From the NCBI GenBank assembly GCA_913060615.1, contig CAJXUL010000007.1:1-37260 (forward strand): a stretch of DNA of 37,260 bases, in the 5' to 3' direction. Under the pieces are notes generated by a model. The model did not search any database. It was not told the DNA's origin and saw only the letters and a list, made by a program, of their open reading frames with translations. Of this stretch, positions 1-30,150 are shown piece after piece; position 1 is the first letter of the stretch, and every line of letters starts with the position of its first letter. This DNA is from an uncultured Gammaproteobacteria bacterium. GTDB taxonomy: Bacteria; Pseudomonadota; Gammaproteobacteria; Pseudomonadales; Azotimanducaceae. Both the position numbers and the translations under genes were made by a program.

Positions 1-48
1 CGAGATAGGAGTCCGTCTCGTGGGCTCGGAGATGTGTATAAGAGACAG
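1..48 (+). other. Illumina Nextera (Tn5) adapter at left contig end
   Basis: Bases 15-48 match the Nextera Read 2 transposase adapter, ending in the 19-bp mosaic end (AGATGTGTATAAGAGACAG). Bases 1-6 (CGAGAT) match the end of the P7 oligo, and bases 7-14 (AGGAGTCC) fit an 8-nt i7 index. This is library sequence, not genome. A small open frame running through it reads MCIRDR, which is an adapter-encoded peptide rather than a gene. Confidence 0.97.
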
Positions 49-24600: not shown

Positions 24601-26022
24601 CTACAGCGAGTCCGCTGCATAAACCAATTCCCCGGCAACCATTGTAAAAACCACTAACGCGCGCGCTAAATCACCCCTGACCTGCTGCCAAGGCTGACTT
24701 AAAAGACACAGGTCTGCCCGCTCACCCACGGCTACTTTTCTCACTGTTGCGCCCGGCGCCAAGGGCTTAGACAAATAGCCCGCCAGCGCCTGCTCAGGGG
24801 ACACACAGTCCCGAGCCCCTATCACTTCACCAGTAGCCGACTGGCGGCTAACCGCCGTCTGCATAACCTGCCAGGGGTTCAGAGGCCCGTAGGGTGCATC
24901 ACTGCTCAGCCCAACCTTAATCCCAGAATTATGCAAAGTTCGGTGGCGATACAAATGAGCTAACTCATGCTCAGTTAAATTTTGCTGGTACTGGGGGCCG
25001 CGCTCATACAAAAAACCAGGTTGCGTAATCACGCTGAGATTAAGCGCTCGAAGCATTGGCAGTACATCATCAAAAATCACCGAGCCATGTTCAACACGAT
25101 CAGTATATTGTTTATGAGGATCTAAATCGGCACAGCTATTTAGCGCAGCGATTGCAAACAGCAGTTCTATATGGGTCACGCAATGAAAAGCTATGCCTCT
25201 TTCTTTCTCTCTAGCGCGTCTGATGCGAGCCTCTAACTCATTTAAAGGCGGCAGGTTATCTTCGTCTAGAAGAATTTTTAGATGCCCAAAATCAAGACTG
25301 TCGTCACCCATTAGATAGGCATGTTGCAGTATTTCACCTTCATCACACAGTTGACGAAATTGCCTAACTGTAGCCGCCGTATTGGTTGCCGACGTATCGG
25401 TAAAGCCGGTAATACCAAAGCTCGCCATCTGCCGCGAGAGCACAGATACATCTAACGGATCTTGCTGTCCCCATTTTTCGCGCAACCAAGCATCCAGACG
25501 AAACAACCGCCCAGTTGGTATTCCTCGGTCATCTAGCTCAATGCCAGCCAACTCTGTGTGGGCGGTCAAATCTAATGCTTCCACCGCCAAACTATTGAGA
25601 GTCCACAGTTTGCCGCTGCGGTGCTGAATTCTCACTGGCCTATCACTGACTAACGCATCTAACTGCCAGCGGTCCAGATCTCCAGCGATGCTCTCGTGAT
25701 AGTTCACACCGCGCAGCCATCCATCACCTGAATATTCTGCCAACAAGTGCCTAAGCGAGGCAGTATCATGCGGTAAAGGAGACTGATTACTAGTTAAGGC
25801 TACAGCAGGCCTGAGGCCACAATCTATTGAACGTTGTAGGGCAGCTGTAGCATAAAAGTGCATATGATGATCATGCAAACCGGGCAACAATTCACCGCCA
25901 TTTGCCTCAGTAACACGTTCTCCAAGCAACGGTTCAAGGCTATCGGCGATTTCACTGATGAACTCACCGGTACAGCGAACATCTCGCTTAAGACCGCTTA
26001 AACAGGCATTTTTAATCAGCAT
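24601..26022 (-). CDS. Amidohydrolase family protein (YtcJ/Amidohydrolase_3 type)
   Basis: A 473-residue metal-dependent hydrolase. The metal site begins at His53-x-His55 ('PGLHDHHMHFYA'). Other conserved parts are 'GWLRGVNYHESIAG', 'VRIQHRSGKLWTLNSLAVEAL' (typical of Amidohydrolase_3), 'FHCVTHIELLFA', 'RVEHGSVIFDDVLPML' and the metal Asp in 'GLSSDAPYGPLNPW'. The C-terminal strand 'AVGERADLCLLSQPW' closes the composite beta-sandwich. The start is ATG 26022, which overlaps the CoA-transferase stop (ATGcTGA); the ribosome site is weak, so translation is probably coupled. The open frame extends to 26088 inside the upstream gene. It likely hydrolyses an amide, lactam or ester whose product could enter the CoA pathway next door. 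Confidence 0.92.
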   Translation of the reverse strand: MLIKNACLSGLKRDVRCTGEFISEIADSLEPLLGERVTEANGGELLPGLHDHHMHFYATAALQRSIDCGLRPAVALTSNQSPLPHDTASLRHLLAEYSGDGWLRGVNYHESIAGDLDRWQLDALVSDRPVRIQHRSGKLWTLNSLAVEALDLTAHTELAGIELDDRGIPTGRLFRLDAWLREKWGQQDPLDVSVLSRQMASFGITGFTDTSATNTAATVRQFRQLCDEGEILQHAYLMGDDSLDFGHLKILLDEDNLPPLNELEARIRRAREKERGIAFHCVTHIELLFAIAALNSCADLDPHKQYTDRVEHGSVIFDDVLPMLRALNLSVITQPGFLYERGPQYQQNLTEHELAHLYRHRTLHNSGIKVGLSSDAPYGPLNPWQVMQTAVSRQSATGEVIGARDCVSPEQALAGYLSKPLAPGATVRKVAVGERADLCLLSQPWQQVRGDLARALVVFTMVAGELVYAADSL

Positions 26023-27140
26023 CTTAAGTTCGGCCTGTGGTGTTCGTGACGCAGCCGAGCGCCTGAGCGATGAATTTTTTTCTGGCAATGAGATGCCACG
26101 GAAAACAGCGATAGATCCAACAATCCGCTCTTATTATGCTTAAGCAGACTCATTACAGTTAGCGCCGCAAAAATACCTGTGAGCGGATCCGCCACCGCAT
26201 CAGCGATAAATTCTGGTCGCCCTTCTAAGTTTTGGGAAAATAACCCGCCGGCCAGCGCCACCTCATCACCAAAACCGACCCAATCACCAAACGGTGCGCG
26301 CCGTCCGTAGGCAGTTAAAGACAACCAAAGCTGTTTGCTTTTGGGCGCAAGCGTGTCTCTATCTACACCTAAGGCCCGTAATGCGCGCGGCCTTGAACCT
26401 TCTATCACCACGTCTGCATTACGCAGCAAATCGGCTAACCGTTGCAGGTCTTCTTGGAGGGAGAAATCTAATTCAACGTGGTCGTGCCCACGATGCAATA
26501 CCTCATACAACTTTGGGCTACCCTGCTGTGCACCATCCGGCCGTTGACAACTGGAAACGGTAGTCACCTGCATACCGCACTGATACAGAAGATGGGCGCA
26601 AAGTGGCCCCGCCCACAATGCTGAAAGATCCACTACCTTCATTTCCGCAAGAGCCCTCACATCACCGACCTGTTGCGCTGCAATTTTGGCATCCGCGGTA
26701 AATTCAAACCAAGGCGCGCTGTCTAAAAACTGCTTGGCGTCTACACGTTCAACTGGAGGCGTTTTAGGTAAAAAGGCAACGGGCAACCCCATCAATCTAC
26801 CTCGAGCAAGCAAAACCTCTGCATCTCGCGCTAACAAAGCTTCCTCAATGTATACCCAGTTAGACAAATCATCGTCCTGCTGCAACCAAGCATTAAGCAA
26901 ACCCCAATCTTCCTCTCGGGCGAGGTTTAGCCCCAACCAGCCATTGCCGGTTGCCATTATGCGACAACTGCCATTTGCGGAAATTTGGCCCTTGGCTCGC
27001 AAACCTAGTTCCGCAGCCCGCTCCCAGAGCAAATCTCTACCCATGACACCAGGCAACAAATCACTGTGCCAGACACGCAGCGCATCTAGCGCTTGGTCAG
27101 CGCAGGCGTTCACCCCGCATGCAGGTATACTATCGCCCAT
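26016..27140 (-). CDS. CaiB/BaiF-type CoA-transferase, apparently circularly permuted
   Basis: A 374-residue family III CoA-transferase-like protein with unusual order. Residues 167-350 (from ATG 27140) hold what is normally the N-terminal half: 'VVDLSALWAGPLCAHLL', 'LRNADVVIEGSRPRALRALGV', 'LWLSLTAYGRRAPFGDW', and the catalytic Asp318 in 'VADPLTGIFAAL'. The first 130 residues instead resemble the usual C-terminal part: 'GSCRIMATGNGWLGLNLAREEDWGLLNAWL' (the 'dG..v.i.....~f..L' segment) and 'ARGRLMGLPVAFLPKTPPVE' (the 'GvPvapV' segment). ATG 27140 shares its CATG with the divergent crotonase ATG 27139; a TTG at 27173 is an alternative. It overlaps the downstream amidohydrolase by 7 bp. The reaction is probably CoA transfer to an acid of unknown identity. 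Confidence 0.85.
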   Translation of the reverse strand: MGDSIPACGVNACADQALDALRVWHSDLLPGVMGRDLLWERAAELGLRAKGQISANGSCRIMATGNGWLGLNLAREEDWGLLNAWLQQDDDLSNWVYIEEALLARDAEVLLARGRLMGLPVAFLPKTPPVERVDAKQFLDSAPWFEFTADAKIAAQQVGDVRALAEMKVVDLSALWAGPLCAHLLYQCGMQVTTVSSCQRPDGAQQGSPKLYEVLHRGHDHVELDFSLQEDLQRLADLLRNADVVIEGSRPRALRALGVDRDTLAPKSKQLWLSLTAYGRRAPFGDWVGFGDEVALAGGLFSQNLEGRPEFIADAVADPLTGIFAALTVMSLLKHNKSGLLDLSLFSVASHCQKKIHRSGARLRHEHHRPNLRC

Positions 27141-27141
27141 G
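27138..27141. promoter_or_regulatory. Overlapping divergent start codons (CATG)
   Basis: The ATG of the crotonase (+, 27139-27141) and the ATG of the CoA-transferase (-, 27140-27138) overlap by two bases in one CATG. If these starts are right, each promoter and ribosome site lies inside the other gene. Confidence 0.5.
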
Positions 27142-28251
27142 TCTAATACATTTCCCCAATCGGCTTCGCTCAAAATTTTATCGCCTGCTGAACTGTTTAC
27201 TTTACTGACGCCGCCTATGGTGGCGGAAGATCAAAGCGTTGTCAGCGGTCAGAGTTATCTATTGGTAGATTTAGACCAGCCTGCAACTAGGGAAATGCCT
27301 ACATCCAAACCAAATTGTCCAGTGATCGGCATCAGCCAGCGGCCAAATTCAAATAAAAGTTCTAGTTCTAGTTCTAGTTCTAGCAAAAGATCTAATAACG
27401 AAGTTGGGATTAGCGCGTGGGTAGATCTCGTTATCCACTTGCCCGAAGAACAGGCGCTGCTAGAGCAAATAGTTGCAACGATAGCTAGCCAGCCATTGGC
27501 AGCCTCCACCTTTGTAGGCGTGCTGCGAGAAGCAGAAAAATTGTCTACGAGCCAAGGCTTAATGGTGGAGTCCCTCGCCTACAGTACGCTACAAAATGGT
27601 CAGGGGTTCAGAACCTGGCTAAGCGACAGATCAGTTTCCGCCGCTCTGCCCCAACAAGATGCAACAGGCCAAGGTCCTGTTGTGTTGGTCGAACGGAGTT
27701 CAAGTGCACATTTAGCCAAGCGAAATAGAGATGGCAACAGGTTGATTTTAACGCTAAACAGACCAACTAAGCGAAATGCATTTTCTGCTGCAATGCGTGA
27801 TGAACTCGCTTCGGCCTTAAACCTCGCATTGGCCGACAAGTCTCTAGAGCACATTGTATTGAGTGGCAACGGTCCGGCGTTTTGCGCGGGCGGCGATCTG
27901 ACGGAGTTTGGGCAGTCTCAAGATGCGGCGCTTGCGCACTTAACTCGCCTTACACGCAGCCCTGCCAGCCTTATGGCCCAGCTCAAGGACAGAGTACAAG
28001 TAAACGTACACGGCGCATGCATCGGCGCAGGGATCGAACTACCGGCATTTGCGAAGACTATAAGTGCTCAATCAAACAGTGTTTTTGCACTACCTGAGGT
28101 GGGATTTGGGTTAATTCCTGGCGCTGGGGGAACCGTGAGCATTCCACAACGCATAGGTAGGCAAAACACCGCGAAGCTTGGTTTGAGTGGCGCACCAATA
28201 GACGCCCAGCAAGCCCTCACATGGGGCTTGATCGACGTTATCGAAGACTGA
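27139..28251 (+). CDS. Crotonase-family protein, apparently circularly permuted, with poly-Ser linker
   Basis: A 370-residue protein. The crotonase core is at residues 198-370, with oxyanion segments 'GNGPAFCAGGDLTEFG' (243-258) and 'GACIGAGIELPA', and Glu320 in 'LPEVGFGLIPGAGG', matching Glu144 of rat hydratase. The Glu164 position is Lys346. The protein stops at 'WGLIDVIED', where a normal crotonase has another 60-70 residues of helices. Those helices appear to lie at residues 107-163 instead ('LLEQIVATIASQPLAASTF', 'ESLAYSTLQNGQGFRTWLSDR', compare the usual '…EGi.aFl.kR'). Residues 74-82 are nine Ser from a TCTAGT repeat. The start ATG 27139 has no clear ribosome site; the frame is open to 26686, opposite the CoA-transferase gene. 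Activity uncertain. Confidence 0.83.
   Translation: MSNTFPQSASLKILSPAELFTLLTPPMVAEDQSVVSGQSYLLVDLDQPATREMPTSKPNCPVIGISQRPNSNKSSSSSSSSSKRSNNEVGISAWVDLVIHLPEEQALLEQIVATIASQPLAASTFVGVLREAEKLSTSQGLMVESLAYSTLQNGQGFRTWLSDRSVSAALPQQDATGQGPVVLVERSSSAHLAKRNRDGNRLILTLNRPTKRNAFSAAMRDELASALNLALADKSLEHIVLSGNGPAFCAGGDLTEFGQSQDAALAHLTRLTRSPASLMAQLKDRVQVNVHGACIGAGIELPAFAKTISAQSNSVFALPEVGFGLIPGAGGTVSIPQRIGRQNTAKLGLSGAPIDAQQALTWGLIDVIED
27358..27384 (+). repeat. Hexanucleotide repeat (AGTTCT)n inside the crotonase gene
   Basis: Four and a half AGTTCT units encode nine consecutive Ser. The 6-bp unit keeps the frame, so slippage would change only linker length. Confidence 0.95.
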
Positions 28252-28318: not shown

Positions 28319-29830
28319 CTAAGACTGGCTCAACTCAGCTTTAACCACACGACGCAGTAACTTACCTGTTTCGTTGTAGGGCAATTCTGGCCATACAGAG
28401 ATCACAGCAGGCACACGAGAACTGCGCAACTGCTCGTTAATCATCGTTTTCAAAGCGTCAATGTCTATACTGGCGCCTGGTTTAGCCACTACCGCCGCAG
28501 CAACTGCCTCGCCCCACTGCTCGTCAGGAATACCCACAACGGCTACATCCGCTATATCTGGATGAGTGAGCATGACGTCTTCAATTTCACCCGGGGAAAG
28601 GTTTTCGCCACCGCGAACAATGACATCGTCTGCGCGACCTTCAAGAAAAAGATAACCCTCTTCATCTATACTGCCCGCATCACGCGTGGGGAACCAGCCG
28701 TCGGCATCGGTGACCGCACCCCGACCTTCATACTCGCCAGACACTTGCTCACCGCGTACGTAAATTTCTCCACGACCACCAGCTTCCAGCAACTTACCTT
28801 CGTCATCACGAATTTCAATCTCCACACCGGGTAAGGCGCGCCCCACAGAAACCAAACGCCTACGGATCAAAGGATCTGTACTTGTAACGGTTTCTCTGTG
28901 CTCATCTGGCCCCAGCACACAAATAGTAGAGCTGGTTTCAGTCAACCCGTACGCATTGGAAAAATCTGTATTAGGGAAAAACTTCATCGCCTTTTCAATA
29001 ACACTTAACGGCATCTTGCCACCCCCATAAGCAAGGCTATTGAGATGTGGCATATCTGCTGTAGCGTTGCCCTGGGCTTCCAACAACTCAACAATTCTGG
29101 CCAACATAGTAGGCACAACAAAGGCGGTAGTAACCTTATGCTCACGAGCCAATTGAACCCAAGCTTCAGCCGTGAAATTTGGTAGCTGAATAACATGGCG
29201 ACCGGAATAAACCGAACTCATAACCGCCGCAATGCCGGCAATATGATAAGGCGGCACACACACGAGGGAGGCATCTTCTTCACCAGCACTGGCAAACTCT
29301 ACAGAGCTGAGAATATAGCTAACCAAATGCTTGTGGCGTAACACAGCAGCTTTTGGCTCGCCAGTAGTGCCGCTGGTAAAAAGCAGTACCGCCACCTCTT
29401 CAGGGTCCATTGACCACTCACCCTCAACAGCCTGAGTGTGCTGACCCGCATCTAAAAAGTCTGCGCAGGCAACGGCATTAACCTCAGCAACAGCACCTAA
29501 CGTTGCCACACGATCCACTTGGGTGACCAAATAAGCGGGCGTAACCCGCTTCAACAACGCTTCAATTTCAGCATCAGTTAAACGGTAGTTCAACGGCACA
29601 AAAGGCACCCCGGCCCAAGCGCTGGTAAACAGACTCAGTGGCGTAGCCAAATTACTGACATCGAGTTTAACCAAGCGACTTGCGCCACTGGCACGGACAC
29701 TGGCGGCTCTATGGCCGGCGGCTTCAAACAACTCGGCATAAGTAAAGCTATCGCCATTGCTACCATCAGTAAAAGCAGTGCGCTCAGGAAATGCAGCATT
29801 CGCCATTTCCAACAACATCATTACATTCAT
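28319..29830 (-). CDS. AMP-forming acyl-CoA synthetase/ligase
   Basis: A 503-residue adenylate-forming enzyme (ANL superfamily) that activates a carboxylic acid to its CoA thioester. Motifs in order: the P-loop 'LLFTSGTTGEPKAAVLRH' (about 149-166), 'PPYHIAGIAAV', 'NAYGLTETSS', 'WFPTRDAGSIDEEGYLFLEGRADDVIVRGGENLSPGEIE' and the catalytic Lys490 in 'LPYNETGKLLRR'. The protein is full length, slightly shorter than average. Start ATG 29830 follows an AGG site. It is 8 bp downstream of the 103-residue gene, so translation is probably linked. The class is fatty or aromatic acyl-CoA ligase; the chain type is not evident. It converges on the permuted crotonase gene. Confidence 0.95.
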   Translation of the reverse strand: MNVMMLLEMANAAFPERTAFTDGSNGDSFTYAELFEAAGHRAASVRASGASRLVKLDVSNLATPLSLFTSAWAGVPFVPLNYRLTDAEIEALLKRVTPAYLVTQVDRVATLGAVAEVNAVACADFLDAGQHTQAVEGEWSMDPEEVAVLLFTSGTTGEPKAAVLRHKHLVSYILSSVEFASAGEEDASLVCVPPYHIAGIAAVMSSVYSGRHVIQLPNFTAEAWVQLAREHKVTTAFVVPTMLARIVELLEAQGNATADMPHLNSLAYGGGKMPLSVIEKAMKFFPNTDFSNAYGLTETSSTICVLGPDEHRETVTSTDPLIRRRLVSVGRALPGVEIEIRDDEGKLLEAGGRGEIYVRGEQVSGEYEGRGAVTDADGWFPTRDAGSIDEEGYLFLEGRADDVIVRGGENLSPGEIEDVMLTHPDIADVAVVGIPDEQWGEAVAAAVVAKPGASIDIDALKTMINEQLRSSRVPAVISVWPELPYNETGKLLRRVVKAELSQS

Positions 29831-29838
29831 AGCGCGGC

Positions 29839-30150
29839 CTAGTCAGTCTTAGGAAGTTTCTTAGTATCCTTTTGCAGCAGCAATTGCCCCGCTAAGGCCA
29901 AACCACCATCACCATTCTTCACGCACAGTACTTCAAGGGTTTCTTCTTCGTTGATGTAACGCTTACCAATGGCTACGCCAACCGCATGGTCTGGATGTAT
30001 TTCTCCACCGGTTGCGGCATCGCTTGCGCTATCTAGCATAGCCACGCCTCCACAAGTCAGATCAACATCACCGGCCGGCGCTGATACAACCATAATTTCC
30101 GCAGTACAAACTGCGCTCTTAAACCGACCACCTGTTTTTAGTTCAGCCAT
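29839..30150 (-). CDS. Small uncharacterised protein, first gene of acyl-CoA ligase operon
   Basis: A 103-residue soluble protein of no family I can name with certainty. It contains Cys15 ('KSAVCTAEIMVVSAPAGDVDL'), Cys33 ('LTCGGVAML') and Cys76 ('EVLCVKNGDGGLALAGQ'), with strand-like alternation and 'IGKRYINEE' in the centre. There is no signal peptide or membrane segment. The start ATG has a strong GGGGGAAAG site. It is followed 8 bp later by the acyl-CoA ligase, so both likely form one operon. Similar small proteins next to acyl-CoA ligases exist in actinobacteria in my recollection, but I cannot confirm this. The three Cys and small size could suit metal binding, which is inference. Confidence 0.75.
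   Translation of the reverse strand: MAELKTGGRFKSAVCTAEIMVVSAPAGDVDLTCGGVAMLDSASDAATGGEIHPDHAVGVAIGKRYINEEETLEVLCVKNGDGGLALAGQLLLQKDTKKLPKTD

Follow-up and report, generated by a model that had tools for sequence, protein, structure and literature searches.

How do two unrelated enzymes, encoded side by side, both come to carry what should be their closing part in front of their catalytic core? This question is raised by a divergent gene pair in a stretch of 37,260 nucleotides (the window: positions 1 to 37,260 of contig CAJXUL010000007.1, GenBank assembly GCA_913060615.1) from an uncultured gammaproteobacterium of the Azotimanducaceae. One gene (26016..27140, minus strand) encodes a class III (CaiB/BaiF-type) coenzyme A (CoA)-transferase of 374 amino acids with a likely ATG start at 27140; an extended form of this open reading frame (ORF; 26016-27173, minus strand) uses an alternative TTG start at 27173 and encodes 385 amino acids. 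The other gene (27139..28251, plus strand, ATG at 27139) encodes a crotonase of the enoyl-CoA hydratase/isomerase type with 370 amino acids. An earlier note on this DNA had proposed that both proteins are circularly permuted, and we refer to them as the permuted CaiB and the permuted crotonase for brevity. To our knowledge, it is very unusual in nature for two unrelated enzyme folds encoded next to each other both to be permuted. Our search of open-access full text found no paper dealing, by its title, with circular permutation in crotonase/enoyl-CoA hydratase or class III CoA-transferase, and none on the gene cluster. We consider it likely that the two CoA enzymes were rearranged alike, into a closing part followed by one catalytic core, and that each arose through in-frame duplication or fusion of paralogues and reciprocal loss.

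Domain order of the two proteins

The ORFs and motifs listed in the earlier note (GNGWLGLNLAREEDWGLL, GLPVAFLPKTPPVE, VDLSALWAGPL, Asp318 and GFRTWLSDR) are all present in the order it gave. The window CaiB scores 98.2 bits with PF02515, against a curated cut-off of 23.3, and thus belongs to the class III superfamily; the match joins profile positions 1-204 of 366 to residues 175-365 of the 385-residue ORF, that is, to its back half. The crotonase superfamily assignment is given by PF00378 and by the crotonase core fold, and profile positions 9-172 of 251 match residues 204-367 of the 370-residue protein, again the back half. This partial coverage means that each protein stops where the canonical core stops, with about 165-195 residues in front. 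The window CaiB does not extend to profile position 343, which 22 of the 25 PF02515 places in the source genome (3.16 Mb over 309 contigs) reach or pass. Among the 42 PF00378 places of the same genome, 32 extend to position 240 or beyond, and the window crotonase is one of the 10 that end before it.

We then compared the front parts, as profiles, with canonical profiles built from ordinary family members (hhalign), using column shuffles and cross-family pairings as controls. The first canonical sets were own-genome members (n=18 for CaiB and n=29 for crotonase), and the larger sets had n=41 and n=49. Residues 1-165 of the CaiB match positions 225-324 of the 18-member profile (E 1.6e-4) and positions 152-323 of the 41-member profile (E 9.8e-6, probability 82%, score 43.2, computed without shuffles). 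Residues 50-130, the putative N-terminal small-domain module (26751..26993, minus strand; canonical counterpart about 237-323), scored 34.0 against a maximum of 17.6 among 60 column shuffles (E 6.9e-5). The crotonase front matches canonical 94-255 with the 29-member profile (E 1.2e-4). With the 49-member profile, crotonase residues 36-178 match canonical 90-247 (E 9.5e-6, probability 83%), scoring 39.1 against a best of 15.1 among 40 shuffles; residues 30-170 scored 33.5 against a maximum of 17.1 among 60 column shuffles. The cross-family pairings (CaiB front with crotonase and crotonase front with CaiB) gave probabilities of about 1% or less. When the crotonase front profile was searched against 177635 PDB sequences, the top two matches were crotonases, 4fzw (E 0.0079) and 4jyl (E 0.009), and the alignment with the latter covers 176-255 with one gap. 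The 14 matches listed comprise five crotonases, eight designed TIM barrels and one viral fusion protein.

Behind the front parts lie the large-domain core of the CaiB (residues 166-360; 26061..26645, minus strand; canonical about 10-210 and the helix after) and the crotonase core (residues 178-370; 27670..28248, plus strand; canonical about 2-185). Structure prediction of both chains, which the earlier note had suggested, gave confident AlphaFold models for the whole CaiB (predicted local distance difference test 91.5, predicted template modelling score 0.92) and the whole crotonase (89.4 and 0.89), and structure searches with these models matched both cores to canonical folds. In the crotonase front, the model has helices at 105-117, 119-132, 137-152 and 155-163. 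This four-helix region (residues 105-163; 27451..27627, plus strand) probably corresponds to the helices at the canonical C-terminus (about 195-252).

Taken together, the profile comparisons support the view that, in both window proteins, the stretch ahead of the core is related to the part of the respective family that normally comes later. Canonical class III CoA-transferases (PF02515; CaiB, FRC/YfdW, YfdE and mesaconyl-CoA transferase) have the order large domain, small domain, tail, whereas the window CaiB has its small-domain part before the large-domain core and lacks the canonical tail. Its near relatives also end without this tail, and the wider permuted CaiB family keeps it (canonical 361-385) at the back. 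In the crotonase superfamily (PF00378) the helices follow the core, whereas in the window protein their counterpart precedes a core that ends at canonical residue about 185, near the point where the helices would begin, as the earlier note had seen. An extra core-like stretch aligned to canonical 90-140 also lies in the crotonase front. Thus, the idea of permutation stands for both proteins insofar as closing sequence comes ahead of the usual N-terminal half, and fails in that the tail stays at the back of the wider CaiB family and core-like sequence is repeated in front in the crotonase.

The CaiB front alignment starts at an internal Met of the canonical family, where the motif is MAL(T/S)G. 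With script-picked starts, 12 of 80 permuted CaiB relatives have this motif as their N-terminus; the window protein lacks it. A stand-alone front-part ORF in one locus (L056) was dismissed, since it is cut by the locus edge. The front part of the window crotonase also contains a run of nine serines (AGTTCT repeat, 27358-27384), which is absent from the close relatives in L002 and L003.

Conservation and catalytic residues

The layout is kept in alignments from near genomes (19 CaiB and 15 crotonase rows) and from a wider scan (51 CaiB and 49 crotonase rows), all including the window. From the scan of public genomes, 80 loci were kept out of 494 confirmed, and counts given out of 80 refer to these. 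In every one of them, the CaiB match begins at or before query residue 53 and ends at residue 323 or later.

Asp318 (26187..26189, minus strand), which corresponds to the catalytic Asp of class III enzymes, aligns with the Asp of ordinary CaiBs and is invariant across the 51 CaiB rows. In the crotonase, Glu300 (28036..28038, plus strand) and Glu320 (28096..28098, plus strand) are invariant across the 49 rows; we take them to be the counterparts of Glu144 and Glu164 of rat hydratase. With these residues invariant, the permuted CaiB should be an Asp-dependent CoA-transferase, a type of enzyme that works by an acyl-aspartyl route. The permuted crotonase, which keeps both Glu residues, is expected to be hydratase-like and should be an enoyl-CoA hydratase/isomerase or a hydrolase. 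The ratio of nonsynonymous to synonymous substitution rates was 0.20-0.27 in the front parts, as against 0.09-0.15 in the cores (two relatives each), which shows that the front parts are constrained.

Origin of the rearranged order

For each enzyme, the path we favour would begin with two paralogues joined in frame by duplication or fusion, after which copy 1 would lose its front and copy 2 its back. Since the CaiB family keeps its tail at the back and the crotonase has the additional core-like stretch, both proteins may be seen as remnants of tandem copies, the back of copy 1 being joined to the front of copy 2.

A strict circular permutation, in which the old ends are joined and new ends are opened, is the first alternative to duplication and reciprocal loss. 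It is in line with the window proteins containing each of the large canonical segments roughly once. However, the tail at the back of the CaiB family profile, the core-like stretch in the crotonase front and the presence of fused tandem CaiBs in the same loci all argue against it, and we regard it as improbable. Judged by its sequence, the CaiB, whose family runs from small domain through large domain to tail, represents a transposition rather than a circular permutation in the strict sense.

Alternatively, the front parts might be unrelated N-terminal accessory domains on C-terminally truncated enzymes whose missing parts were lost. A number of results lean this way and weigh against duplication and loss. 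Searches of Pfam and NCBIfam with both front parts gave no useful match, and no Pfam match is convincing: across the 51 CaiB front parts, PF02515 was matched by only five members (best E 0.025) and no other family by more than one. Against PDB sequences, the CaiB front profile found no CaiB and three spurious matches (best E 0.67). CaiB residues 1-50 alone did not match the canonical family, their score of 12.4 lying below the best shuffle (13.5), and crotonase residues 1-96 alone matched weakly (15.9 against shuffles up to 12.9, E 0.036). The profile probabilities of both front parts are moderate (82-83%), and the designed TIM barrels also appear among the matches of the crotonase front profile, from E 0.0096 upwards. 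Searches of local ORFs with the front parts as hidden Markov models gave weak matches only: for the CaiB, unrelated ORFs came out on top, mixed with canonical CaiBs at the small-domain position, and for the crotonase the best match was a canonical crotonase (E 0.12). The structure matches lie almost wholly on the cores, in searches that used whole chains and sequential aligners, a method unable to show permutation. On the other side, both fronts match the missing part of their own family with about twice the score of the best of 40-60 shuffles, whereas the cross-family pairings are near zero; crotonases come first among the PDB matches of the crotonase front; and the four-helix pattern is found at crotonase residues 105-163. 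PMC9196870 describes the small domains as the less conserved part of class III CoA-transferases. We give the accessory-domain explanation little credence.

The linkage with an amidohydrolase gene (64 of 80 loci) could mean that the permuted proteins are no longer enzymes and now serve as structural or regulatory subunits of the amidohydrolase, but the invariance of the catalytic Asp and of both Glu residues makes this very improbable. An assembly or sequencing artefact (chimaeric contig, frameshifts) can practically be set aside: the contig does come from a fragmented assembly and has an adapter at its first bases, but the same layout recurs in many independent genomes and plasmid records, and both proteins are under purifying selection.

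Gene neighbourhood and distribution

In the window, the CaiB (minus) and crotonase (plus) genes share a CATG palindrome at their starts (27138..27141), so that the start codons overlap by 2 bases with zero intergenic space. An identical overlap is found in L046, L049, L051 and L071, that is, in 4 of 15 divergent loci (script-picked starts). The amidohydrolase gene (PF07969; 24601..26022, minus strand) has its ATG at 26022 and therefore overlaps the CaiB gene by 7 bases. Among the 80 loci fetched by CaiB, some of which are cut by contig ends, the amidohydrolase is found in 64, the permuted crotonase in 57, an acyl-CoA synthetase in 42 and a 103-residue protein in 40. The amidohydrolase gene lies downstream on the same strand in 56 of its 64 loci. 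The position of the crotonase gene varies: in the 57 loci with both genes it lies upstream on the opposite strand in 18, downstream on the opposite strand in 21 and on the same strand in 18. The divergent pair pointed out in the earlier note is not a fixed arrangement, since the divergent upstream order is limited to those 18 loci. The amidohydrolase is the commoner partner, and what recurs is better described as a triad made up of CaiB, crotonase and amidohydrolase. Among these three, the protein distances show correlations of 0.88-0.91 in 28 loci (0.84-0.88 in 49), and their correlation with the synthetase is lower (0.74-0.81).

The acyl-CoA synthetase of the window (AMP-binding by Pfam; 28319..29830, minus strand), a frequent neighbour, is preceded by the gene for the 103-residue protein (29839..30150, minus strand), which has no Pfam match. 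This gene is directly upstream of the synthetase gene in 34 of the 38 loci having both. The 103-residue protein has conserved Cys residues and the motifs GKRY and LP(S)SD. Also encoded around the window gene pair are an LLM oxidoreductase of the F420 type and an acyl-CoA dehydrogenase. At the contig end, window positions 15-48 carry ctgtctcttatacacatctccgagcccacgagac on the minus strand, which creates a false ORF end and which we take to be a transposase-type sequencing adapter.

The titles of records with permuted-CaiB loci include Proteobacteria, Actinobacteria, Acidimicrobiia, Myxococcota and Acidobacteria. The earlier note had guessed at actinobacterial relatives, and these were indeed found in loci of Nocardia, Streptomyces, Gordonia and Prauserella. 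Plasmids of Rhodococcus, Streptomyces and Sphingobium bear all three triad genes, under the generic annotations 'CoA transferase', 'enoyl-CoA hydratase/isomerase family protein' and 'amidohydrolase family protein'. The distribution is nevertheless thin: in an even sample of 120 genomes of the phylum, the permuted crotonase (E 1e-30 or better) was found in the source genome only. On a Streptomyces plasmid (L183), the triad adjoins a mycofactocin biosynthesis cluster, and an F420 ligase gene lies near the triad of an Aromatoleum locus (L079). Pfam searches with nine ORFs around the latter found acyl-CoA dehydrogenases, electron-transfer flavoprotein, aldehyde dehydrogenase and the F420 ligase, and gave no clear pointer to the substrate.

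Asp-less, fused and small-domain-first CaiBs

The permuted crotonase (E 5e-59 or better) is present in 31 of 37 genomes of the source genus, the source included. The permuted CaiB accompanies it in 22 of these, in two of them in pieces or partial, and the other nine have no match to it. In these nine, over the extent of the contigs, the genes largely retain the order LLM, 103-residue protein, synthetase, crotonase, amidohydrolase, and the CaiB slot is gone. An obligate complex of CaiB and crotonase is therefore unlikely there; what survives of the earlier note's suggestion of a fixed complex or CoA module is a conserved module around the genes. Five of the nine (L256-L259 and L264) have two ordinary CaiB genes beside the amidohydrolase gene, the first of the pair in L257 being split over two frames. 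Two others show only the end of an ordinary CaiB gene before the contig stops; the contig of L261 stops too early, and L260 has no ordinary CaiB beside the amidohydrolase. In all five pairs, the member adjoining the amidohydrolase lacks the catalytic Asp and its partner has it. Counted across the genus, the Asp-less CaiB (E 1e-60 or better) is found in nine genomes, none of which has a permuted CaiB. It is found in none of the 22 genomes with a permuted CaiB and in 7 of the 9 with a permuted crotonase but no permuted CaiB (hypergeometric 1.4e-5, relatedness ignored).

Fused tandem CaiBs of 805-881 amino acids occur in five permuted-CaiB loci (L059, L060, L066, L068 and L124). In 5 of 5 checked, the first half has Ser in place of the catalytic Asp and the second half has the Asp. 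The source genome also encodes two fused CaiBs (C3 and C104).

These findings suggest how the permuted CaiB could have arisen. Its ancestor would be a fused or paired CaiB, one copy of which had lost the catalytic Asp. With one copy lacking this Asp, a single active site would be left, formed by the small domain of the dead copy and the large domain of the live copy. Removal of the dead large domain and of the unused small domain from the fusion would then leave the small domain followed by the live large domain. The permuted CaiB would thereby be a single chain in which one small domain is followed by one large domain. This route through an Asp-less half, the one we favour for the CaiB, is conjectural, because neither the tree nor the front-part profiles tie the permuted family to such halves. 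In the core tree described below, the permuted CaiB family is on a long branch apart from the tandem halves, and the CaiB front has a better E value against the general family (9.8e-6) than against the Asp-bearing set (3.8e-4) or the Asp-less set (3.7e-3), both of which are shallow. The genomes of one genus are non-independent points. The Asp-less gene is present in G026 and G030, which have no permuted crotonase at the level used; outside the genus, it occurs together with a permuted CaiB in G044, and Asp-less/Asp pairs stand alongside a permuted CaiB in L063 and L080. All of these points count against the scenario. Descent of the permuted CaiB from the Asp-less/Asp pair thus finds no support in either the front-part profiles or the core tree.

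In other proteobacteria, PF02515 matches ending at about position 204 led to a second family, CoA-transferases of about 460 amino acids (L220-L226), found in 7 of the 120 phylum genomes (E 1e-40 or better, counting the genome of the query). As in the window CaiB, the front part comes ahead of the core; in these proteins its 200 residues match canonical 163-335 (E 6.8e-11). Whole-family profiles of the two families are colinear over 277 columns, mostly core (E 2.2e-24), and the front parts compared directly give a weak match (probability 9.5%). No permuted crotonase was found in the five 6-kb loci checked. Small-domain-first CaiBs therefore reach beyond the pairing with crotonase. In a tree of 76 cores, in which 17 of the 51 rows of the window family and seven rows of the about 460-residue family were used, each family forms its own clade (100/100 and 100/99, respectively). 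A single joint clade of both is not rejected (approximately unbiased test, p 0.369).

Relation to known CoA-transferases and predicted function

Canonical class III CoA-transferases form an interlocked dimer with a composite active site, as described in PMC3720670 and PMC9196870; in mesaconyl-CoA transferase (7xkg), the small domain spans residues 231-319 (PMC9196870). The closest parallel to the Asp-less/Asp pair of L256 is benzylsuccinate CoA-transferase (BbsEF; 9fn0, 9fol and 9fun), whose chains A and B are the best PDB matches of the Asp-less and the Asp-bearing member, respectively. The aligned Asp is absent from chain A and present in chain B. The pairs of L257-L259 and L264 are likewise BbsEF-like. 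BbsEF consists of two full-length canonical chains, one without Asp, whereas the window has one permuted chain containing a single domain of each kind, small and large, and thus is not of the BbsEF type. On a bolder reading, the permuted CaiB would be a minimal single-chain transferase that keeps the live site of a half-dead tandem. As its active site would form in cis, the interlocked dimer would be undone; the crotonase would have been reduced likewise, and with the amidohydrolase the two would make up a CoA-dependent route of degradation, as yet undescribed, that occurs in several phyla and on plasmids. We hold this reading to be possible, though rather unlikely in its entirety.

CoA-transferase, crotonase, amidohydrolase and synthetase are together expected to act on a carboxylic acid. 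In a catabolic CoA pathway with the neighbouring acyl-CoA synthetase as its point of entry, the amidohydrolase would be the hydrolytic partner. Genes for acyl-CoA dehydrogenases, electron-transfer flavoprotein, F420 and mycofactocin near single loci fit the degradation of cyclic or hydrocarbon-like compounds. Since the triad is annotated only generically on the plasmids seen, it marks a pathway without an assignment, and the occurrence of the gene pair with the amidohydrolase across several phyla points to an undescribed CoA pathway module. If the proposed history of the CaiB is true, this family would be a natural test case for the reason behind the interlocked form of class III CoA-transferases and for the way in which fusions are pruned of their dead half-sites.

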